DNA of 64,000 nt, taken from positions 1 to 64,000 of the forward strand of contig NZ_OMPO01000003.1 in NCBI RefSeq assembly GCF_900292035.1, in the 5' to 3' direction. This DNA comes from Blastococcus sp. Marseille-P5729. GTDB lineage: Bacteria > Actinomycetota > Actinomycetes > Mycobacteriales > Antricoccaceae. Numbering within the stretch: the stretch's first letter is position 1; every line of letters begins with the position of its first letter. Positions 1 to 11,093 of this stretch are shown piece after piece. The position numbers were made by a program, and so were the translations under genes. Under the pieces are notes generated by a model. The model did no database searches and was not told the DNA's origin. It was given only the letters and a program-made list of their open reading frames with translations.

Positions 1-97
1 CGTCCTCGGGGTCTGGCGGTTGCTCGTAGAGATAGCTGAAGGCGGCGTTGAGCGATGCGGCCAGCGGGACGGCGAGCAACGCGCCGACGATACCGGC
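1..97 (-). CDS. AI-2E family transporter, C-terminal fragment (cut at both ends)
   Basis: Read on the minus strand, bases 97 to 1 encode AGIVGALLAVPLAASLNAAF followed by SYLYEQPPDPED and run off the window edge. The G-x-x-GALLAVPLAA pattern is the characteristic C-terminal membrane motif of AI-2E (YdiK/PerM-like) permeases. The roughly 300 upstream residues expected of the family are absent: the frame runs straight into a G homopolymer at 98. The fragment is therefore truncated at its 5' side by the junction and at its 3' side by the window. It looks like foreign contig sequence joined to the next gene, not a functional neighbour. Confidence 0.7.
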
Positions 98-2474
98 GGG
101 GGGGGGGGGGGGCGCGGCGGCCCGCCGGGCGCGCCCGGGGGGGGGGGGCAGCCCCCGCCTCACCCACTGTCTGCTGGCGGCGATCGTTGCGCTGCTGGTG
201 CTCACCCTCGCCCCCGCCATCACGCCCGCCGGCCACGCCGCACCCGACCCCACCGCAGGCCCGCCGCGCCGCGATCCCTTCCCGGTGCAGGTCACCTTCA
301 CCAGCATCAGCCCCAGGCTGCTGCAAGGCGACGAGCCGATCCAAGTCAGCGCACGACTCACCAACACCGGTCAGAGCACGATCAGCAAGATGTGGGTGCG
401 GCTGCAGCGCGATGACCGCGTGTCCAACCGCGCCGGTCTGCTCGCGGTCGACCAGAAGCAGCCGACGTACACCTCGGTAGTCGGTGACGAGGTCGATCTC
501 GACGACGAGCTGGCACCTGGGCAGACCCGCACCGTACAGCTGTCCGTCGCGCCGGGAGATCTGGCGATCACGCAGGCGGGCAACTATCCGATCCTGCTCA
601 ACGTGCAGGGCGCGATCGACGGCGAGCCCGGGCGGGTCGGACAGGTCGCCTTCACACTCCCCCGCGCCGAGGCGGCCCAGGCCCAGCCGGTCTCGGTGAC
701 CTGGGTCCTTCCGCTGATCGAGCGGCCGCACCGGGCCGGCGAGGCCGATGTCTTCGTCGACGACCACCTCGCCGAGCTCGTGGCACCGGGCGGGCGGCTT
801 GAGCGAATCCTCACTGCCGCCGAGACGCACGCCGACGCGAGCGCTTTGACCCTGGTCATCGATCCCGGGTTGGTGGACGAGCTCACCGCGATGAGCGACG
901 GCTACCAGGTGCGCGCTGCCGACGGCACGACAGAGGGTGCTGGCGCGGACGACGCCCTCGGATTCCTCGACCGGCTCCGAGCGCTCGCCGAGACCACGAC
1001 CATCGCGATCACGCCGTACGCCGACGTCGACACCGTCGCGCTGGTCCGGGCCGGGCTCGGATCCGTCGTCCAGGCGGCCCACGCGTACGGCGAGCAGGTC
1101 GTCACCGACCAGCTGCAGACCACTCCGCACACCCAACTCGCCTGGCCGGCCGACGGCATTCTCACCGACGCTGCCCTCGACGTCCTTCGGCAGACCGGAA
1201 TTACCCAGGTGCTGCTGGGCGGTGCCTCCTTCGGTCAGCAGGACTATCTCGCCTCCAGCGAGCAGGTCACCGAGGACGCCGCCACGGCCCTGCCCGGCGC
1301 TACCGCGATCGTGGCCGACCCCGGCCTGTCCCGGCTGCTGGGCGACGGAACCGGGTTTGCCGGCGGCGCGCCGGCCGCCACACAGCGGGTCGCGGCCGAG
1401 CTGGCGACGATCGCCGCCCAGTCGCCGAGCCGCCAACGGAATGTCGTGCTCGCGCCGCCGCGCGACTGGAATCCGTCGTCCGACCTGCTCAACTCGTTGC
1501 TGACGCTCACGACGACCACACCGTGGATCGCACCGGCCTCCCTCGAGGAGGCCGCCAGCCGGGCACCGCAGGATCGCGGCGCCCTCGACTACCCCGCTGC
1601 CTTGTCCACGCGAGAGCTGCCGGCCGAGACACTGCAGGGACTGCAGGTGCCGATCGCCCAGATCAACGAGCTGAGCGGGGCCTTCGAGCCGGCCGACGCC
1701 GACGAGGTCCTCGCCTCCGCGCAGGCTGCTATGTTCCGGGCCGCGAGCTCCGCCTGGCGGGGAGCCGCCGGCGGGCCGCAAGGGCCGGGCGCCGACGCGG
1801 CCGTCGACGCCGTCAACCACATCCGTGACCAGATCCGGATCGTCACCCCGACGAACGCCACCTACACGCTCTCCGCGAGCGACGCCCCGCTGGTGCTCAC
1901 CGTCGAGAACAACCTGCCGGTCCCGGTCTCCTACCGCATCGGGCTGGACCCGAGACAGTCCGCGGGCCTGAAGCCGGCAGACATCGGAGTGCTGACCATC
2001 CCCGCCCTGTCCCGCGCCACGGTCCAGATACCCACCACCGTCGAGCGGTCCGGCACCTTCTCGGTGGTGGCGCAGATCCGGACGCCGGACGGCAAGCCGC
2101 TCGGTCGCGACGTCACGATCATGGTGTCGTCGTCGGTGTACGGCACGGTCGCGCTGATCGTCACCGGCGCAGCCTTCGCCATGCTGCTGGCGCTGATCGC
2201 CCGCCGCTGGTGGCGCCGCCGCCAGTTCTGGGCGGCGCAGGCTGCGCAGCCGCAGGAGCCGGCCCCGGTCGATCACGACCCCTTCGCAGGCGGGGAGGAC
2301 GACGACTGGGACCTGTCGGTGCACGAGGCGGACGCGGGTGAGCCCGCCCCGGACGACGACGCGACCCGACACCGGCCCAGCGGGCCGCCGGAGGTTGTGG
2401 ATCAGCAGAACGTAGGCTCTACCGAGCCCTCGCGGCCCGTCCCGACCTCCCGTACGGAAGAAGATCGCCCATGA
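48..2474 (+). CDS. DUF6049 family secreted/membrane-anchored protein (5' end unreliable)
   Basis: Large extracytoplasmic protein of the actinobacterial murJ locus. Visible parts: a hydrophobic signal-like segment (CLLAAIVALLVLTLAPAITP, about residues 41-60 of this frame), a long secreted body with Ala/Asp-rich loops, one membrane helix near the C-terminus (GTVALIVTGAAFAMLLALIA) followed by an Arg-rich stop-transfer stretch, and an acidic cytoplasmic tail. It ends in an ATGA overlap with murJ, so the two are translationally coupled. Function is unknown; the position implies a role in envelope assembly. Position 48 is the start of the open frame, but bases before about 149 read through the transporter fragment and G runs and are probably not genuine. 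The real initiation site has probably been lost. Confidence 0.75.
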   Translation: MSDAASGTASNAPTIPAGGGGGAAARRARPGGGGSPRLTHCLLAAIVALLVLTLAPAITPAGHAAPDPTAGPPRRDPFPVQVTFTSISPRLLQGDEPIQVSARLTNTGQSTISKMWVRLQRDDRVSNRAGLLAVDQKQPTYTSVVGDEVDLDDELAPGQTRTVQLSVAPGDLAITQAGNYPILLNVQGAIDGEPGRVGQVAFTLPRAEAAQAQPVSVTWVLPLIERPHRAGEADVFVDDHLAELVAPGGRLERILTAAETHADASALTLVIDPGLVDELTAMSDGYQVRAADGTTEGAGADDALGFLDRLRALAETTTIAITPYADVDTVALVRAGLGSVVQAAHAYGEQVVTDQLQTTPHTQLAWPADGILTDAALDVLRQTGITQVLLGGASFGQQDYLASSEQVTEDAATALPGATAIVADPGLSRLLGDGTGFAGGAPAATQRVAAELATIAAQSPSRQRNVVLAPPRDWNPSSDLLNSLLTLTTTTPWIAPASLEEAASRAPQDRGALDYPAALSTRELPAETLQGLQVPIAQINELSGAFEPADADEVLASAQAAMFRAASSAWRGAAGGPQGPGADAAVDAVNHIRDQIRIVTPTNATYTLSASDAPLVLTVENNLPVPVSYRIGLDPRQSAGLKPADIGVLTIPALSRATVQIPTTVERSGTFSVVAQIRTPDGKPLGRDVTIMVSSSVYGTVALIVTGAAFAMLLALIARRWWRRRQFWAAQAAQPQEPAPVDHDPFAGGEDDDWDLSVHEADAGEPAPDDDATRHRPSGPPEVVDQQNVGSTEPSRPVPTSRTEEDRP
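98..148. other. G-homopolymer junction (15 G and 12 G runs), probable assembly artefact
   Basis: A run of 15 G (98-112) and a run of 12 G (137-148) flank a short GC-only segment. They sit exactly where a leftward transporter fragment meets the rightward DUF6049 gene. Natural coding DNA here has no comparable runs. Poly-G is a known error mode of two-colour short-read chemistry, so a chimeric contig end is the simplest reading (inference). Confidence 0.6.
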
Positions 2475-4111
2475 GCCAAGGCGGACTGCTGCGTTCCGCC
2501 GGCCAGGTGGCCATCGGCACCCTCACCTCCCGCGTCACCGGATTCGTCAAGACGCTCGCGCTCGCGGCGCTGCTCGGCGACACCCTCACCAACGACGCCT
2601 ACAACGTCGCCAACACGCTGCCGAACATGGTGTACGAGCTGCTGCTCGGCGGCGTCCTGACCTCGGTCATCGTGCCGTTGCTGGTCCGGGCGGAGAAGGA
2701 CGCCGAAGAGAGCGGCAGCGACCACAACGCCTACGCGCAGCGGCTGTTCACCCTCTCAGTCGTGGGCCTCACCGGCGCGACGGTGATCGGCGTGCTGCTC
2801 TCGGGCGTGCTGGTGACGATGATGAACATCGGCCCGGGGCAACCCCACCACGACCGCGCCACGCTCATGGCCATGCTGCTGCTGCCGCAGATGATCTTCT
2901 ACGGCATCGGCGCGCTCGCCGGCGCCGTCATCAACACCCGCGAGTCCTACCGCGGCCCCGCCTGGGCGCCGGTGCTGAACAACCTCGTCGTGATCGCGGT
3001 CGCGGTGGCGATGATCTGGCTGCGCCGCGGCAGTGGCGAGCTGACCACGGCCGAGGTGGTCATCCTGTCGGTCGGCACCACGCTCGGCATCGTGGCGCAG
3101 GCGTTGATCCTGATCCCGAGCTGGCGCAAGGTCGGTTTCCGCTGGAGGTGGCGCTTTGACGTCCGCGGTGTCGGCCTGGGCGAGCTGCGCTCCCTCGCGG
3201 TGTGGGTGCTCGGCTACGTCATCATCGGTCAGGTCGGCTTCATCGTGGCCACGAACGTCGCCAACTACGCCAGCCGCACCGTGCCCGGCACCACGACCCA
3301 GTGGACCTACGCGGCGCTGCTGTTTCAACTGCCGTACGGCATCCTCGGCGTCTCACTGCTGACCGCGCTGATGCCCAAGATGTCACGAGCCGCTCGCGAC
3401 CACGACTGGCCCGCTGTCAAGCGGTTCCTGGCCGATGGCACCCGGCTGACTGGCATAGGGCTGATCCCGGTCAGCGTCGCCTTCTGGCTGCTGGCCGTCC
3501 CGCTGACGGCGCTGTTCTTCAACGTCGGGCGGTTCGGGCCGGACGCCGCCCGCTCAACCGGCCTGATCCTGGCCGCGGCCTCCTTCGGGCTGCTGCCGTA
3601 CGCGATCACCCTGCTGCAGCTGCGGGTGTTCTTCGCCGCGAAGGACGCTCGGACGCCGACGCTGATCATGGTCGGCATCGTCGCCGTCCGGATCGTGCTG
3701 AGCCTGGCGTGCTTGACGCTGCCGCCCGAGCACGTCGCCCTCGGCCTGGCGGTCGCCAACAGCCTCGCCTTCGTCGTCGGCGCGGCGATCGGCGATGTCG
3801 TGCTGCGCCGGCGGTTCGGTCGCCTGGGCACCGGTGCGGTACTGCGTGAACTGGTGAGGATCAGCGCCGCGGCGGGCATCGGCGTCCTCGTCGCCACGCC
3901 GGGCTACCTGTGGCTGAGCCAGCTGCTGACCGGCATCGACCCCTGGAACCTCGACGGCCTCACCGGCGTGCCGGTGCTGGCGATGAGCAAGCTTCAGCTG
4001 GCCCTGGTGCTGGTCGTCTCGAGCATCGTCGGCCTCGCGGGCTTCGTGGCCGCCGGTCTGGCGCTGCGACTGCAGGATCTGCGCCGGCTTCGCGGGCTGC
4101 GCCGCCGCTGA
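2471..4111 (+). CDS. murJ: Lipid II flippase MurJ (MviN), membrane domain only
   Basis: Moves lipid-linked peptidoglycan precursor across the cytoplasmic membrane. The 546-residue product begins SQGGLLRSAGQVAIGTLTSR and has about 14 hydrophobic segments with the MurJ pattern LTNDAYNVANTLPN in the first third. The start overlaps the previous gene by four bases (ATGA). The mycobacterial orthologue continues into a cytoplasmic pseudokinase and an extracytoplasmic domain. Here the protein stops after the membrane part (tail LQDLRRLRGLRRR), and those domains are found on separate genes at 4194 and 8478. Confidence 0.95.
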   Translation: MSQGGLLRSAGQVAIGTLTSRVTGFVKTLALAALLGDTLTNDAYNVANTLPNMVYELLLGGVLTSVIVPLLVRAEKDAEESGSDHNAYAQRLFTLSVVGLTGATVIGVLLSGVLVTMMNIGPGQPHHDRATLMAMLLLPQMIFYGIGALAGAVINTRESYRGPAWAPVLNNLVVIAVAVAMIWLRRGSGELTTAEVVILSVGTTLGIVAQALILIPSWRKVGFRWRWRFDVRGVGLGELRSLAVWVLGYVIIGQVGFIVATNVANYASRTVPGTTTQWTYAALLFQLPYGILGVSLLTALMPKMSRAARDHDWPAVKRFLADGTRLTGIGLIPVSVAFWLLAVPLTALFFNVGRFGPDAARSTGLILAAASFGLLPYAITLLQLRVFFAAKDARTPTLIMVGIVAVRIVLSLACLTLPPEHVALGLAVANSLAFVVGAAIGDVVLRRRFGRLGTGAVLRELVRISAAAGIGVLVATPGYLWLSQLLTGIDPWNLDGLTGVPVLAMSKLQLALVLVVSSIVGLAGFVAAGLALRLQDLRRLRGLRRR

Positions 4112-4193
4112 GGCGCCTGAACGCCGGAGCCAGGTTTATCAATTCGTTATGTGGCGTTACGTCATGCCGCAGGTGCTGCTTCGTTTCATTGAA

Positions 4194-4883
4194 ATGATGA
4201 CCACCAGCGAGCCCACCCGCACCGCCGCGCACCTCGGCGAGGTGCGTGCGGCGCTGCGCCCGCTGGTGGGCAGCCGGTATCGCGTCATGGACGAGGTCGA
4301 TGAGGTCCTGGTGGACGATGCCACCGGCGAGCCCGTCCCGTACTGGAGCTGCTACCTGGCCGAAGACGTCCGGTTACGACGCAAGGTGGTGCTGCGTCTG
4401 GCGCGCATCGAGCACGGTGACACGGCGGGCCTGCACGCGCGGGTACGCCAGGCGCGGTTCGGCGCGAGGCTCAACGCCCACCTGGTCGCCGGTGTGTACG
4501 ACGCGGTCATCCACGGCGATCCGTCACTGATCGCACCGCCGGCCACGGCCGCCGTAATCGTGAGCGAGCACTTCCAGGGCCCGACGCTGCGTGAAGCCAT
4601 CGACTCCGGCGCGCACCTGAACCAGTCCGCGATCCTCGCAGCGCTCGCGCACCGCGTCGCGGACGCCGCGGACGCCGGCATCAGCTTTGGCGTCCTGCGG
4701 CCCGAGCAGGTCGTGCTGTCGACCGAGGGCCCCGCCATCGCCTGCCTGCCGGCCGGCACCGTGGTCGAGCTCGGACCGACCAGCCTGGACGCCCTGGCCG
4801 AGGGCATGCGCACCAGCGGGATGCTGGCCCGCGCGTTCCGCCGGATGCGGACGGCGTCCGCCCGCCACGTGCCCGCGCACTAG
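4194..4883 (+). CDS. Pseudokinase-like protein, MviN-associated
   Basis: About 229 residues resembling an incomplete protein kinase fold and lacking catalytic residues. The beta-3 VAVK lysine position reads VVLRLARI, the HRD catalytic loop position reads SFGVLRPEQVVLS, and no DFG motif is visible. In mycobacterial MviN the corresponding cytoplasmic pseudokinase is fused to the flippase and, when phosphorylated, recruits FhaA; here it is a free gene 82 bases downstream of murJ. The frame is open from an ATG at 4149. I chose the ATG at 4194 (a second one is at 4197) because the upstream residues look unlike the family, but no clear ribosome site supports either. A regulatory role on MurJ is inference. 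Confidence 0.75.
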   Translation: MMTTSEPTRTAAHLGEVRAALRPLVGSRYRVMDEVDEVLVDDATGEPVPYWSCYLAEDVRLRRKVVLRLARIEHGDTAGLHARVRQARFGARLNAHLVAGVYDAVIHGDPSLIAPPATAAVIVSEHFQGPTLREAIDSGAHLNQSAILAALAHRVADAADAGISFGVLRPEQVVLSTEGPAIACLPAGTVVELGPTSLDALAEGMRTSGMLARAFRRMRTASARHVPAH

Positions 4884-4906
4884 AAAGACCGACCCCTAGA
4901 ACCGTC

Positions 4907-4942
4907 GAAGCGGGCGCTACCCGATATGGTGGCGCCCGCTTC
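4907..4942. terminator. Bidirectional terminator-like hairpin
   Basis: Perfect 11-bp stem GAAGCGGGCGC (4907-4917) / GCGCCCGCTTC (4932-4942) with a 14-nt loop. It lies between the convergent pseudokinase and TRAP permease genes. Confidence 0.7.
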
Positions 4943-4954
4943 GGGCGATCGGTC

Positions 4955-7081
4955 CTACGCCGTGGCGGTCTCGGGCTCGCGCACCGGCTCCGTAGCCTCC
5001 GGGCCGCTCCGGCCGCGCAGCTTGAGGAAGACCGTGATCAGCGCGAACACGATCAGGCCCACGATTGTGGTGATCGGCTCGGGCAGCAGCATGCACACGC
5101 CGGCGGCGACGGCCAGGATGCGGGTCACCGGGTCCATCTGCCGCTCGACGAACGGCATGTAGCCCTCGAAGCCGGAGGCCATCGAGAACACACCGACGAT
5201 CGACAGGGCCAGCGCCAGCATCACGTTGCCGAACGAGTCCTGCGCCACCAGCGCGGGATTGAGCGCGAAGCAGAACGGGATGATGTACTTCACCGCTCCG
5301 AGCTTCATCGCCACGAACCCTGTCTTCATGGGCGGCGTCTTCGCGATGCCTGCCGCGGCGAAGGCGGCCAGCGCGACCGGCGGGGTGATGTAGGAGGCCG
5401 TCGCCCAGTAGATGACGAACAGGTGCGCCGCGACCGGGTTGACGTCGAGCGCCACCAGCGCCGGCGCCATCACGATCGAAAGGAACACGTAGACCGCCGA
5501 GACGGTCATCCCCATGCCGAGCACGAAGCTCGTGATCGCACCGGCGATCAGGATCAACAGGACGTTCTCGCCGACCGCGGCGACCAGCTCGCGCGCCAGC
5601 GACAGCGAGACGCCGGTCATCGACAGGCCGCCGATGATCAGTCCGACGCCGGCGATGATGCCGATGATCTCCGCGATGGCACGTCCCGAGGCCAGCACGA
5701 TGTCGCGGAAGCCGCGCAGGCTCAGCCGATCGGTCTTGCGGGCGAAGGCGATCGCGAGCATCAGTACCACGGTGTAGAACGGCGCCTGCGCCTCATCACG
5801 CTGCACGACCAGCAGGAACAGCAGGACGCCGATGGCCAGCAGGTACGGCCAGCCGTCACGCAGCGTAGCCAGCAGCCGCGGCAGGCGGTCCTTCGGCTCA
5901 CCGCGCAGCCCCTTGCGGGCGGCGTACGCGTCGACCTGAAGGAAGATGCCGAGGTAGTAGAGGAATGCGGGAATGGCGGCGGCGAGCGCGACCTCGCTGT
6001 AGGGGATGCCGAGGAAGGACACCATCAGGAAGGCCGCGGTACCCATGATCGGAGGGGTGATCGAGCCACCGGTCGCGGCGGTCGCCTCGATGCCGGCGGC
6101 GTAGGTGCCGGGGTAGCCGGCCTTCTTCATCGCCGGGATCGTCATCGGGCCGGTGGTCAGCACGTTGGAGACCGCCGAGCCCGACATCATGCCCATCGCG
6201 GCGGACGAGCCGACCGCGACCTTGGCCGAGCCGCCACGAGCCCGCCCGAAGATGGCGCGCGCCAGGTCGACGAAGAAGTCACCGCCGCCGGCGCGCTGCA
6301 GCACGACGCCGAAGATCAGGAAGCCGACCAGCAGGGCGGCCGCGGTCTGCAGCGGCAGGCCGAGGATCGAGTCCACGCCCAGCGAGTGTTGGCGAGCAGC
6401 GCCGTTGGAGTCGTACTGCACGCCCTGCAGCACCGGGAACGGGATGGACGCCGAGAACAAGGGGTACAGCGAGAACAGCAGCGCGATCAGCGTGACGATC
6501 AGGCCAGCCGTACGCCGCAGAGCCTCGAGCACCAGAATCCACAGGACGTAGCTCAGCACGATGACGTGAGTCGGAGCCGCGAAGTCCCAGCCGAAGTTGA
6601 CCGCGTCCAGGGCACGCATGCCGAGGTAGAAGTTCACCGCGAAGGTCAGCACGACCAGCAGCGCGTCGTACCACGGCACCCGGAAGGTCTCGGCCTCGGT
6701 GACATGGTCGGCGTCGTGCGGGTCGGCCGCCTCGCCGTCCGGGTGCTCCAGTGCTTCGACGCGGGTCTTGCGCCACCGGAAGAAGATGAACACCTGCGGC
6801 AGGAAGAACGCCAGGGTGAAGTACAGGAACTGGTTGGTCAGCATGACCGGGCCGAAGGGGTTCCACAGAAACACCTGGCTCAGCACCACGGCGACGCCGC
6901 AGATGGTCATGATGATCGCGATCCACCGCCAGATGCGCGCACCCGGCGAGCGACCGAAGGCAGGGTCCTCGGGAGCATCGTGCTGGAACTGCGGGCTGCC
7001 CTGGTCCAGATCGGCACCGGCCGCGATATCGGTGTCGGTTGCCGTCGCCGGGGTCGCGCCGCCGGCGTTCGGCTCGTTCAT
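4955..7081 (-). CDS. TRAP transporter fused permease (DctQ-DctM type)
   Basis: Membrane component of a tripartite ATP-independent periplasmic transporter, predicted to import a carboxylate or similar solute using a cation gradient. About 708 residues: an acidic soluble N-terminus, then a DctQ-like small domain (segments near IWRWIAIIMTICGVAVVLSQ), then the large DctM-like domain with many helices and the SGSAVSNVLTTGPMTIPAMK region typical of TAXI-associated fused permeases. The frame can also start at a TTG at 7093 that overlaps the upstream gene. I prefer the ATG at 7081, four bases after that gene's stop. It forms an operon with the TAXI protein at 7086-8207. The operon interrupts the murJ-associated block. 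Confidence 0.9.
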   Translation of the reverse strand: MNEPNAGGATPATATDTDIAAGADLDQGSPQFQHDAPEDPAFGRSPGARIWRWIAIIMTICGVAVVLSQVFLWNPFGPVMLTNQFLYFTLAFFLPQVFIFFRWRKTRVEALEHPDGEAADPHDADHVTEAETFRVPWYDALLVVLTFAVNFYLGMRALDAVNFGWDFAAPTHVIVLSYVLWILVLEALRRTAGLIVTLIALLFSLYPLFSASIPFPVLQGVQYDSNGAARQHSLGVDSILGLPLQTAAALLVGFLIFGVVLQRAGGGDFFVDLARAIFGRARGGSAKVAVGSSAAMGMMSGSAVSNVLTTGPMTIPAMKKAGYPGTYAAGIEATAATGGSITPPIMGTAAFLMVSFLGIPYSEVALAAAIPAFLYYLGIFLQVDAYAARKGLRGEPKDRLPRLLATLRDGWPYLLAIGVLLFLLVVQRDEAQAPFYTVVLMLAIAFARKTDRLSLRGFRDIVLASGRAIAEIIGIIAGVGLIIGGLSMTGVSLSLARELVAAVGENVLLILIAGAITSFVLGMGMTVSAVYVFLSIVMAPALVALDVNPVAAHLFVIYWATASYITPPVALAAFAAAGIAKTPPMKTGFVAMKLGAVKYIIPFCFALNPALVAQDSFGNVMLALALSIVGVFSMASGFEGYMPFVERQMDPVTRILAVAAGVCMLLPEPITTIVGLIVFALITVFLKLRGRSGPEATEPVREPETATA

Positions 7082-7085
7082 GCGC

Positions 7086-8207
7086 TCAGCCAAGGTTCTG
7101 CGCCTTCCAGTCCAGCCAGACCTGCTTCAGGTCGGCGTCCGAAGTGTCGTCGATGATCGACTTCCAGCCCGCCTTGAGCTTCTTCTCGCGCTCCAGTAGC
7201 TCGTCCTGCTTGGCCTGTGCCTCGGGGCTCCACATGTCGATCCCCTCGAGGACGGCGATCAGGCCTTCGTGGAAGGGGACCTGCTGCGGGAAGGTGACCG
7301 CCTTCTCGTAGTGCCAGTCCGGCGTCACCTTGGTGGCGTTCTTGTAGCGCGGGAAGGCATCGACGATCGCCTGGGAGTACTCCTGGACCGTGGCTTTGTC
7401 GGTCGTGTCGTAGGTGATGATCGGGATCGAGTAGATGAACCCGATGTCCTCCTGCCCCTCTTCCTGGCCGGGCGCGCCCGAGAACGGGCCGAGCGTCAGC
7501 GAAGGGTTGATCTTCTGGATGGCATCCAGCAACGCCTGGTCGTTCTGGTCCATCTTGACCCACTGGACGGGGTTGGAGCTCTCGAGCTCGTAGAGGGAAG
7601 CGCCGTAGACCTGCTGGAAGAGCATGTCGATCTTGCCCTGCTTGAGCCCCTCGGCCTGCTCGCCGTACGAGATCGGGACCAGCTCGACGTCGTCGCGCGA
7701 CAGCCCGGCGCCCGCCAGCGCCATCTCGATCTTGCCGTTCACCGACGGGTTCGCGGTGACGTCGGGCAGCCGCTTGCCGGCCAGGTCGGTCAGGGTCTCG
7801 ATGCCGGAGTCCTGGCGCACCAGCAGACCGTGCGGCGCGACCGGGCCCCACACGAGCCTGGTGGACTGCGGGCCCCATTCGCGGGCGAGGAACTCGTTCG
7901 TGGCCTCGAGCGCGAAGATGTACTCGTCGCCGGTGCGGGCGAAGGTGGCCAGGCCTTGGCGTAACGGGGTCATCCGGCCGATGGCGGTGTCCGAGGTCAT
8001 TATCCGGGTCCGGATGTCCGCCTCGTCGGCCAGCGCATTGGCGACCGCGGCGACGTCCGCGTAGGTCGAGGTGCCGGTGCCGTACGTCGAGATCACGGCC
8101 ATCGACAGCTTGCCGTCGACGTACGCCGCCCCCTTCGCCGTGCCGCACCCGGCGAGCAGAGTCAATGACCCCGCCAGCCCGAGCCCTAGGAACTCTCGTC
8201 TGCGCAC
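7086..8207 (-). CDS. TAXI family TRAP transporter solute-binding lipoprotein
   Basis: Captures the solute outside the membrane and passes it to the fused permease encoded just downstream. The GTG at 8207 is preceded by a strong GGAGGAG site (start chosen for this; the frame is open to 8288). The N-terminus RRREFLGLGLAGSLTLLAGC combines an RR-type (Tat-like) signal with a lipobox ending at Cys, so it is a predicted lipoprotein. The body has the TAXI pattern (VISTYGTGTSTYADVAAVAN, LTDLAGKRLPDVTANPSVNG). The ligand cannot be told from sequence; TAXI proteins commonly bind glutamate or other carboxylates. Confidence 0.9.
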   Translation of the reverse strand: MRRREFLGLGLAGSLTLLAGCGTAKGAAYVDGKLSMAVISTYGTGTSTYADVAAVANALADEADIRTRIMTSDTAIGRMTPLRQGLATFARTGDEYIFALEATNEFLAREWGPQSTRLVWGPVAPHGLLVRQDSGIETLTDLAGKRLPDVTANPSVNGKIEMALAGAGLSRDDVELVPISYGEQAEGLKQGKIDMLFQQVYGASLYELESSNPVQWVKMDQNDQALLDAIQKINPSLTLGPFSGAPGQEEGQEDIGFIYSIPIITYDTTDKATVQEYSQAIVDAFPRYKNATKVTPDWHYEKAVTFPQQVPFHEGLIAVLEGIDMWSPEAQAKQDELLEREKKLKAGWKSIIDDTSDADLKQVWLDWKAQNLG

Positions 8208-8477
8208 TGTTGCTCCTCCGCCGTTCCAGCCCCATGTCGAGTCGTGGTAATCCGAACCATTCCCGCCGTGCCGCCTCGATGCAAGCATTGTTAGGTTGCG
8301 GTTTGGTGACCGCGATCGAGCCCGGAATGGCTACTGGCCGGTTCGATCGCGACGATCGATGGATGCGTGAGCGGTGTCTCGTCACCGCCGAGCCTCCTCC
8401 CGGGTCGGGCAGAGCGCGGTAACTTGGAACGGCCGGACCCCCCGGCGTCCGCACGTCGACAGCACCCGAACGAGGCC

Positions 8478-9368
8478 ATGGCACCGCGCACTCCTTCCGA
8501 TCCCGACGGCTACTCCGAGAGCCAGGCCGAGACCGATCCCTACGGCTCGGTCTGCGACGAGCCGTACGACGAGGCCGGCGCAGCGCCGGCGGTCTCGGCG
8601 GACGAGCGCGCACCTGGCGGCCCGAGCGAGGCGGACGGTGACTACCACGCCGTCGCCGACGATGCACATGCCCAGCCAGCGGCCGCCGGAACCGCGTCGA
8701 GCGAGGCGGCCGCCGCACCCCGGCCTACCCGCAAGGCAGCTGCCCCGCGCACGCGCTGGCAGCTCGTGGGGTTGACTGCGCTCGGCGTCGTCGCCGCGCT
8801 CCTGCTGGGCTGGTTCACCGGCATCGTCGCCGGAAAGGCCTTCGGGCCCGACGAGCCCGAGCCCCGGGAGAAGCCGACCGAGACCAGCGAGCCCGCCCAG
8901 GCGACCGGTGAGGGCGCCACTCCGGGCGAGCCGATCACGATCACCGGAGCGACGCTGTTCGACCCGCCGCCGGGCGACGGCGAGGAGAATCCCGACCGGG
9001 TCGACCTGTCCTACGACGGCCAGCCCGGCACCACCTGGCCGACGCTGCAGTACAAAGGCAACGCGAAGTTCGGCAACATCAAACCCGGCGTCGGCATCAT
9101 CTACGACCTCGGCTCGACGAAGACCTTCGCGAAGGTGCAGATCTCCACGACCCTTCCGGGTGCGACCGTCGAGATCCGCACCGGAGGTGGCAAGACCGGC
9201 ACCATCGACCAGTTCACCAGCGTCGCTTCCGCCGAGCTCCAGCTGAACACCGAGATTCCGGTACCAGAAGGCACCAGCTCTCAGTACGTGCTGATCTGGA
9301 TCACCGAGCTCGTACCCCAGCAGGGATACTTCCAGGCCTCGCTGTCGGAGGTCGTCTTCATCGCCTGA
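8478..9368 (+). CDS. Membrane-anchored discoidin-like protein (detached MviN C-terminal module)
   Basis: About 296 residues: an acidic low-complexity cytoplasmic region, one membrane helix (LTALGVVAALLLGWFTGIVA), a short Pro/Glu/Thr linker, then a beta-sandwich-like extracytoplasmic domain (ITGATLFDPPPGDGEENPDR, GIIYDLGSTKTFAKVQISTT). This is the architecture found at the C-terminus of fused mycobacterial MviN proteins, where the outer domain resembles F5/8 type C (discoidin) folds. The ATG at 8478 follows ACGAGG; the frame is open from 8367. It is separated from murJ and the pseudokinase by the TRAP operon on the opposite strand. Function is probably peptidoglycan- or glycan-related sensing (inference). 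Confidence 0.75.
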   Translation: MAPRTPSDPDGYSESQAETDPYGSVCDEPYDEAGAAPAVSADERAPGGPSEADGDYHAVADDAHAQPAAAGTASSEAAAAPRPTRKAAAPRTRWQLVGLTALGVVAALLLGWFTGIVAGKAFGPDEPEPREKPTETSEPAQATGEGATPGEPITITGATLFDPPPGDGEENPDRVDLSYDGQPGTTWPTLQYKGNAKFGNIKPGVGIIYDLGSTKTFAKVQISTTLPGATVEIRTGGGKTGTIDQFTSVASAELQLNTEIPVPEGTSSQYVLIWITELVPQQGYFQASLSEVVFIA

Positions 9369-9398: not shown

Positions 9399-9432
9399 AG
9401 GCCCACATGAGGGCCTATCTGCCGTAGGCAGC
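9399..9432. terminator. Two small hairpins before sigM
   Basis: AGGCCC (9399-9404) pairs with GGGCCT (9411-9416), followed by CTGCC-GTA-GGCAG (9420-9432). There is no T tract. They could end the preceding transcript or shape the sigM leader. Confidence 0.3.
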
Positions 9433-9447
9433 CGTTAGAGTGATTGG

Positions 9448-10020
9448 GTGACCTCCTTCGCCGTCGAAGATGACCCGCGCTCTGACAAGGAGCTGCTGGC
9501 CGATCACGTCACCGGTGACCCCTACGCGTTCGAGCGCATCGTCCAGCGTCACCGCAACCGGCTGTACGCCGTGGCGCTACGAACCATGCGCGATCCGGAG
9601 GACGCCGCTGACGCACTGCAGGACGCCCTCATCTCGGCGTTTCGCGCGGCGTCGTCCTTCCGCGCGGAGGCACAGGTCACGACCTGGTTGCACCGCATCG
9701 TCGTCAACGCCTGCCTCGACCGGATCCGGCGCAAGCAGGCCCGGCCCACCGCTCCCCTCCCAGAGGAGGGGCCCGGCGAACCCGCCGACCCGCGTGACGC
9801 CGTCGACGAACGCGACATGTCGATGCTGGTGCAGGACGCGCTCATGAAGATTCCCGAGGACCAGCGAGCCGCCATCGTGCTCGTTGACGTCCAGGGCTAT
9901 TCGGTGGCGGACGCCGCCGCGGCCCTCGACGTCCCCGAGGGGACCATCAAGAGCCGGTGCGCCCGCGGGCGAGCCAAGCTCGCGGTAATTCTCGGGCATC
10001 TACGGAACCCAGAGGGCTAG
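9448..10020 (+). CDS. sigM: ECF RNA polymerase sigma factor, SigM family
   Basis: 190-residue extracytoplasmic-function sigma factor. Region 2 (YAFERIVQRHRNRLYAVALR, DAADALQDALISAFRAASSF) is followed by a short linker and region 4 (LMKIPEDQRAAIVLVDVQGY, VPEGTIKSRCARGRAKLA). The GTG start at 9448 gives the family's usual length. In actinobacteria sigM sits between the mviN cluster and trxB/trxA, as here, and responds to envelope or thiol stress. The next gene encodes its likely anti-sigma factor, 158 bases downstream. Confidence 0.93.
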   Translation: MTSFAVEDDPRSDKELLADHVTGDPYAFERIVQRHRNRLYAVALRTMRDPEDAADALQDALISAFRAASSFRAEAQVTTWLHRIVVNACLDRIRRKQARPTAPLPEEGPGEPADPRDAVDERDMSMLVQDALMKIPEDQRAAIVLVDVQGYSVADAAAALDVPEGTIKSRCARGRAKLAVILGHLRNPEG

Positions 10021-10178: not shown

Positions 10179-11093
10179 ATGACCCAGGACTTTCGCGCCA
10201 CTGGCGTGTCAGGGCCATGCCCAGACGTGGACACGCTGGCAGATCTACATGCCGGTGTACTCGACGCCACCACGGCCGCGTCCTTGCGCACCCACGTCGA
10301 CGGGTGTGCGGCGTGCACCGAGGTGCTCGCTGCACTCGACGCGACCGTGCAGTCGCTGAGCGCGCTTCCGCAGGTTGAGCTGCCCGCTGATGTCGCGGCC
10401 CGGATCGACCGCGCCCTCGCGGCCGAAGCGGGCCGTGGCGACGGCGACCTGTCGAGCTCGTTCGCTACCTCGCCCCCGGTAGCACCGTCGAATGTGCATC
10501 GGCTGGATGCCGACCGTCCACGTCAGGCCAAGCCCGAACCATCCGCCCACGGTGGCCCGCCGCAGCAAACCGGCGAGGCCACGAATGTCCGCAGCCTCAG
10601 CGCGCACCGTGAGAAGAAGGCCGGCCGCGGCCGGCTGCTGCTCGCAGCCGCGGCGGCCGCGGCCGTGATCGGCGGCGGCACTCTGGTGCTGACCCAGAAC
10701 GGCGGCGAGAACGTCGCCAACAACCAGGCCGGCAGCAGCCAGACCACGCAGACGGAGAACCAAGAGCGTGCGGAGGGCGAGGCGGTCCCCGGCCAGGTGC
10801 AGACCTTCAACTCGCCGGCCGACGTTCTCGACCGCGGCGCGATCGAGAACAACGAGGTCTCGCCGGAGGTGGCCGGCCAGATGGCCGAGCTGTCGGCGCG
10901 CAACCAGTGCCTCAGCGAGATCGTGCCGCGGCCGGCGTCCGCCCCTGAAGCGGTCCAGGCCGGCAGCTACCAGGGCGATGAGGCCTACGCCTTCGTCTTC
11001 CCGACGAGCGATCCCGAGGTCGTCGAGATGATCGTGGTCGCGGCTGCGGACTGCTCGAACATCCTGCACAAGGAATCGGGCCCGCGTAACTAG
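10179..11093 (+). CDS. Zinc-finger anti-sigma factor (SigM partner, RsmA-like)
   Basis: 304 residues. The N-terminal cytoplasmic domain carries the ZAS zinc motif LRTHVDGCAACTEVL (H-x3-C-x2-C) preceded by the usual upstream His (DLHAGVLD). A linker of about 90 residues leads to one membrane helix (LLLAAAAAAAVIGGGTLVLT) and an extracytoplasmic domain with two late cysteines (ARNQCLSEI, AADCSNIL). It would bind and silence the sigma factor encoded immediately upstream. The ATG start follows GAGGAGATGTC, a good ribosome site. Confidence 0.88.
   Translation: MTQDFRATGVSGPCPDVDTLADLHAGVLDATTAASLRTHVDGCAACTEVLAALDATVQSLSALPQVELPADVAARIDRALAAEAGRGDGDLSSSFATSPPVAPSNVHRLDADRPRQAKPEPSAHGGPPQQTGEATNVRSLSAHREKKAGRGRLLLAAAAAAAVIGGGTLVLTQNGGENVANNQAGSSQTTQTENQERAEGEAVPGQVQTFNSPADVLDRGAIENNEVSPEVAGQMAELSARNQCLSEIVPRPASAPEAVQAGSYQGDEAYAFVFPTSDPEVVEMIVVAAADCSNILHKESGPRN

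Follow-up and report, generated by a model that had tools for sequence, protein, structure and literature searches.

A TRAP-TAXI cassette between the pseudokinase and discoidin-like genes of an MviN-type module in Blastococcus sp. Marseille-P5729

The MviN-type module of Blastococcus sp. Marseille-P5729 consists of three separate genes, encoding a MurJ/MviN lipid II flippase, a soluble pseudokinase (PK) and a membrane-anchored protein with a discoidin-like domain (TM-DLD, or DLD), and a two-gene TRAP-TAXI transporter cassette lies on the opposite strand between the second and the third. This is a real, uncommon rearrangement of a known module. We consider it likely that the uptake cassette was inserted neutrally, at a dispensable spot of a module whose PK had already eroded. 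The window analysed here is a 64,000-nucleotide stretch of this genome (G000); G001 to G004 denote the other four genomes of its family, with G001 and G002 being sister species of the same genus.

Organization of the locus

Table 1 Features of the MviN-type locus in the window
Feature	Position	Strand	Evidence
DUF6049 protein	48..2474	+	Pfam DUF6049, 175.7 bits; same order in relatives
MurJ lipid II flippase	2471..4111	+	Pfam MurJ, 300 bits; TIGR01695 above cut-off
MviN-type pseudokinase (PK), soluble, C-terminally truncated	4197..4883	+	Relatives' profile, 53 bits; 35% to fused PK-DLD of G003; hhalign
PK segment with a family-profile match (profile positions 4-140 of 261)	4266..4730	+	N-lobe to catalytic-loop region
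16-bp inverted repeat	4906..4943	no strand	Separates the converging PK and TRAP genes; candidate bidirectional terminator
TRAP transporter fused permease	4955..7093	-	TIGR02123, 610 bits; Pfam DctM
TAXI-family solute-binding protein	7086..8207	-	TIGR02122, 145.5 bits; Tat/lipoprotein-like signal (RRREFLGLGLAGSLTLLAGC)
Conserved block over DLD start codon	8467..8494	+	Common to G001 and G002
Membrane helix plus discoidin-like extracytoplasmic domain (TM-DLD) gene	8478..9368	+	Profiles and structure model
Predicted TM helix of DLD protein	8757..8840	+	Model of window 8730-9365, helix at residues 10-37
SigM-type ECF sigma factor	9448..10020	+	Match to NF007225 above its cut-off (285 bits)
Anti-sigma factor candidate, downstream of sigM	10179..11093	+	Weak anti-sigma/zf-HC2 matches; position conserved

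The sequence-only reading had assigned the three products, in order, to the modules of MviN, and profile searches confirm each assignment (Table 1), with 200 bits for the DLD protein against the relatives' TM-DLD profile. They likewise confirm the opposite-strand TRAP operon (4955-8207) that it had placed between the second and third pieces. MurJ matches its profile over the full length above the cut-off, terminates shortly past the last helix without a long C-terminal linker, and shares 65-80% identity within the window's family. The DUF6049 gene lies upstream, its stop overlapping the murJ start. On the 3' side of the anti-sigma candidate, the frames read as thioredoxin reductase and thioredoxin, the former being conserved in relatives. 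A TAGAGT hexamer (window 9430-9448), located six bases 5' of the sigM GTG start and seen by eye only, suggests a leaderless sigM promoter. A second MurJ-family protein is encoded outside the window in the same genome (G000:C1:48280-49620; 170 bits to Pfam MurJ).

The locus shares with M. tuberculosis MviN (Rv3910) the three modules, their identical order, and a position near sigM and trxB. Rv3910, however, combines MurJ, pseudokinase and TM-DLD in one protein, whereas the window holds three separate reading frames, a truncated PK without membrane anchor, and the TRAP-TAXI genes between modules two and three. That this arrangement, seen in a single genome, is an assembly error appears extremely improbable: the locus lies at the start of, and within, a contig of 502,743 bases, the genome comprises 5 contigs with a completeness rating of 100%, the reading frames are intact at both junctions, and the TRAP permease is present once in the genome.

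Arrangement of the module in relatives

In most families examined of the order, the usual state comprises two genes, MurJ and a fused PK-TM-DLD; all modules form a single protein only in families f3 and f7 among those examined. Both forms are also described in PMC10166564, whose S6 legend has an unextended mviN followed by a gene for a 'protein kinase family protein'. The window resembles this two-gene form of many Actinobacteria in its separate MurJ, orthologous PK and DLD, and same neighbourhood, but differs in that the two-gene form unites PK and TM-DLD in one protein with a complete pseudokinase. Because a separate MurJ is the usual state, the MurJ/PK border does not represent a split of MviN, and the three-way fission of a fused MviN claimed by the sequence-only reading was rejected. 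At this border, loci of families f9 and f12 (L045, L046, L050) contain a gap of 1.2-1.6 kb between murJ and the PK-DLD gene; in f9 the gap has gene-like frames, of which one resembles NlpC/P60 on visual inspection. Insertions are thus tolerated at the MurJ/PK border as well.

Only the break between PK and DLD is derived. Outside the family, every relative examined has PK-DLD as one gene, and so does G003, which carries it beside a separate MurJ. As G003 keeps the fusion and the DLD reading frame of the window (352 aa) is the shortest among the matches listed (the next being 479), sequence comparison identifies the PK/DLD break as a true, derived and rare step. Synteny in relatives, a check named in the sequence-only reading, shows MurJ followed by PK-TM-DLD in most of those examined; PK is absent from the loci of G001, G002 and G004. 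In G002, MurJ and DLD are neighbours, while in G001 and G004 they form one reading frame. These PK-less MviN proteins (G001, L033 8336-10783; G004, L036 6988-9801, minus strand) read straight from MurJ into TM-DLD through a short or a long linker, and have apparently arisen twice.

A truncated and eroding pseudokinase

By profile comparison, the window PK is homologous to the MviN (ActPs3) pseudokinase domain. With a profile drawn from relatives of other families it scores 53 bits, against 18 for the best of 200 shuffles, and its G003 ortholog scores 46 bits with the same profile; a Pfam search of the PK gave no match of its own. A profile of 19 such relatives retrieves as first matches the M. 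tuberculosis MviN pseudokinase structures 3otv, 3uqc and 3oun (E 8e-58), with PknB well behind (E 2e-35). Profile-profile comparison (hhalign) of the window and G003 PKs with the relatives' PK profile gave a probability of 98 and an E of 3e-14. The start is most likely at 4197, since the MTTS.. encoded there matches VTTS.. of the ortholog; 4194 and 4149 are alternatives. Structure prediction against the MviN domains, put forward in the sequence-only reading, succeeded for the DLD protein (see below) and yielded a poor model for the PK. Because the pLDDT of this model is only 49, its kinase-like Foldseek hits carry little weight, and the case rests on the sequence profiles.

Like the ActPs3 pseudokinase family (PMC12599244), the window PK has a homologous N-lobe and catalytic-loop region and has lost the kinase motifs, with VVLR for VAIK, VLRPEQ for HRDxKPxN, and no DFG in the alignment. 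A phospho-Thr tail that binds FhaA is a further mark of ActPs3; the window PK is assigned to the family by sequence. Unlike ActPs3, it lacks the C-lobe and has His where the hinge Trp is otherwise invariant. The window and G003 PKs match only positions 3-141 of the 261 in the profile, compared with 235-260 positions in nearly all other relatives, and the aligned tail of the window PK lacks most of the C-lobe of a complete two-lobed kinase-like domain. As the truncation is common to both genomes, it probably predates the TRAP insertion. Among the 12 residues invariant across the 19 relatives, five are lost in the window and four in G003, and both invariant Trp are replaced in each. The frame nevertheless remains open for 228 codons, and its GC content by codon position (0.75/0.50/0.90) is typical of a gene; the PK can therefore not be called a pseudogene.

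A hidden or relocated PK in the sister species was rejected by locus and genome-wide profile searches, and none of the genomes of G001, G002 and G004 contains a convincing match elsewhere. On a family tree from flanking genes, which places G003 outermost and G000 with G002 at a support of only 54-71, the PK was lost three times, in parallel in three relatives, a requirement that weighs against the insertion scenario. Taken from these comparisons, the PK is best read as eroding and dispensable in the window's family, in a lineage-specific manner.

In M. tuberculosis, the PK domain is phosphorylated by PknB and recruits FhaA (PMC12599244). The window PK could still function as an adaptor free in the cytoplasm, which a PknB-type kinase would phosphorylate and which would bind FhaA and act on MurJ or DLD in trans, a reading we regard as doubtful. 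The intact, gene-like frame and the presence of FhaA do speak against decay and would allow for a PK that may still work; furthermore, nine protein-kinase domains are encoded in the genome, of which two lie no more than 9 kb from fhaA, and the similarity of the PK is retained up to the catalytic-loop region. However, FhaA is present in 5/5 family genomes, and because the three PK-less ones keep it too, its presence is no proof that the PK works. The missing C-lobe and the loss of the hinge Trp and other invariant residues also argue against such an adaptor, and M. tuberculosis can dispense even with the intact MviN pseudokinase domain (PMC6180346). Similarly unlikely is a combined reading, in which the family preserves a dismantling series, from a truncated and fused PK (G003) over a truncated, detached and soluble PK (G000) to its absence with MurJ leading into the discoidin domain (G001, G004), and the detached PK in addition serves as a soluble adaptor in trans.

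The membrane-anchored discoidin-like protein

The model of the DLD protein comprises one N-terminal helix followed by a predicted beta fold of the CBM32/F5/8 type C kind. With Foldseek, the model matches CBM32 structures (E 2e-5, TM 0.71 by target length), and the DLD profile matches F5/8 type C chains (E 6.5e-4), consistent with a discoidin, F5/8 type C or CBM32-like beta-sandwich. Carbohydrate binding characterizes this class, to which the DLD is assigned by predicted fold and profile. TM-DLD was found in 265/299 genomes of the order. The f2 genomes among those listed are all without a TM-DLD match; the whole family f2 may have lost the module, or it may have diverged beyond detection.

The DLD gene is placed at 8478 because the conserved block spans its ATG. 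Comparison of this block with G001 and G002 gave identities of 88.9% across 27 bp and 92% across 25 bp (E 1e-5 and 4e-6). We considered and rejected a promoter conserved between G000 and G002 ahead of DLD, as beyond the start block the two sequences are no more alike than shuffled ones (fraction 0.25). In G001 the block is found, in frame, within the MurJ-DLD fusion, which suggests that the fusion arose later than the separate DLD start. As the TRAP-free sisters have the same DLD start, a separate start need not stem from the insertion.

The TRAP-TAXI cassette and its junctions

The TAXI binding protein and the fused permease are adjacent on the minus strand, and both score above curated cut-offs. 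As in TAXI-type TRAP systems with a fused permease (TIGR02122/TIGR02123), both components are complete and on the same strand; only the location is unusual. The same cassette occurs in G004 (76-79% protein identity), where its neighbours are unrelated genes and the MviN locus is far away. DNA similarity between the G000 and G004 cassettes is confined to the two genes, and because it ends at 8206, the TAXI start is set at 8207. Neither a target-site duplication nor a mobile-element gene marks the insertion, which counts against the insertion scenario, and flanking repeats, considered at the cassette ends, were not convincing. The sister loci of G001 and G002 show no trace of TRAP, and elsewhere these genomes contain only distant TRAP permease matches. 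On the PK side, the intergenic region to the permease folds at -43.5 kcal/mol (z -5.8), and the 16-bp inverted repeat behind the PK is likely a terminator. On the other side, the TAXI and DLD genes diverge over a shared 270-bp gap.

The idea that the TRAP insertion divided the module holds insofar as the PK/DLD break is real and G003 is fused; given the shared DLD start, the gap itself may predate TRAP. As the start block seems older than the G001 fusion and the sister loci lack TRAP, the comparison suggests that TRAP entered a pre-existing gap between separate genes. Alternatively, the genus ancestor may already have had separate MurJ, PK, TRAP and DLD, with PK and TRAP deleted together in the sisters. 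Such a history would fit the start block common to G000, G001 and G002, and sisters that contain neither a PK nor a closer TRAP permease, but the clean sister loci and the distant cassette of G004 make it rather unlikely.

We also considered a purposeful recruitment of TRAP, for example for amino or organic acid import for wall synthesis, with control shared with the DLD-sigM promoter region. According to PMC11574862, TAXI binding proteins can be glutamate-specific, and the divergent orientation of TAXI and DLD would permit shared control; yet the arrangement occurs in one genome only, the G004 cassette has unrelated neighbours, and the hairpin stands between TRAP and PK. Recruitment is thus very unlikely, and the link between uptake and cell-wall regulation implied by the sequence-only reading found no support.

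Discussion

We postulate that a two-gene TRAP-TAXI cassette inserted between the PK and the membrane-anchored DLD of an MviN-type module. The PK, by then presumably without its C-lobe and several invariant residues, would have been dispensable, so that its detachment from the membrane could be tolerated. MurJ would flip lipid II as usual, and production of the TM-DLD protein would begin at a start of its own beside sigM. The PK would persist as a free cytoplasmic remnant without membrane anchor and with probably little or no function, while the hairpin behind it probably halts transcription from the MurJ side. The wedged position of the uptake operon is most likely due to a PK that was already decaying and being lost in the family, and we conclude that the arrangement can be explained without functionally linking uptake to wall synthesis.

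The interest of the locus lies mainly in the PK-less and PK-detached forms it reveals. In mycobacteria, PknB and FhaA are thought to act via the PK when they restrain MurJ; the forms seen here suggest that, in a related family, this domain is decaying and can be dispensed with. The conserved function presumably rests with MurJ and the anchored DLD, both kept in 5/5 family genomes, and the retention of the DLD, joined directly to MurJ in two genomes, points to it as the conserved partner of MurJ. Natural PK-less MviN proteins are thereby available for testing.
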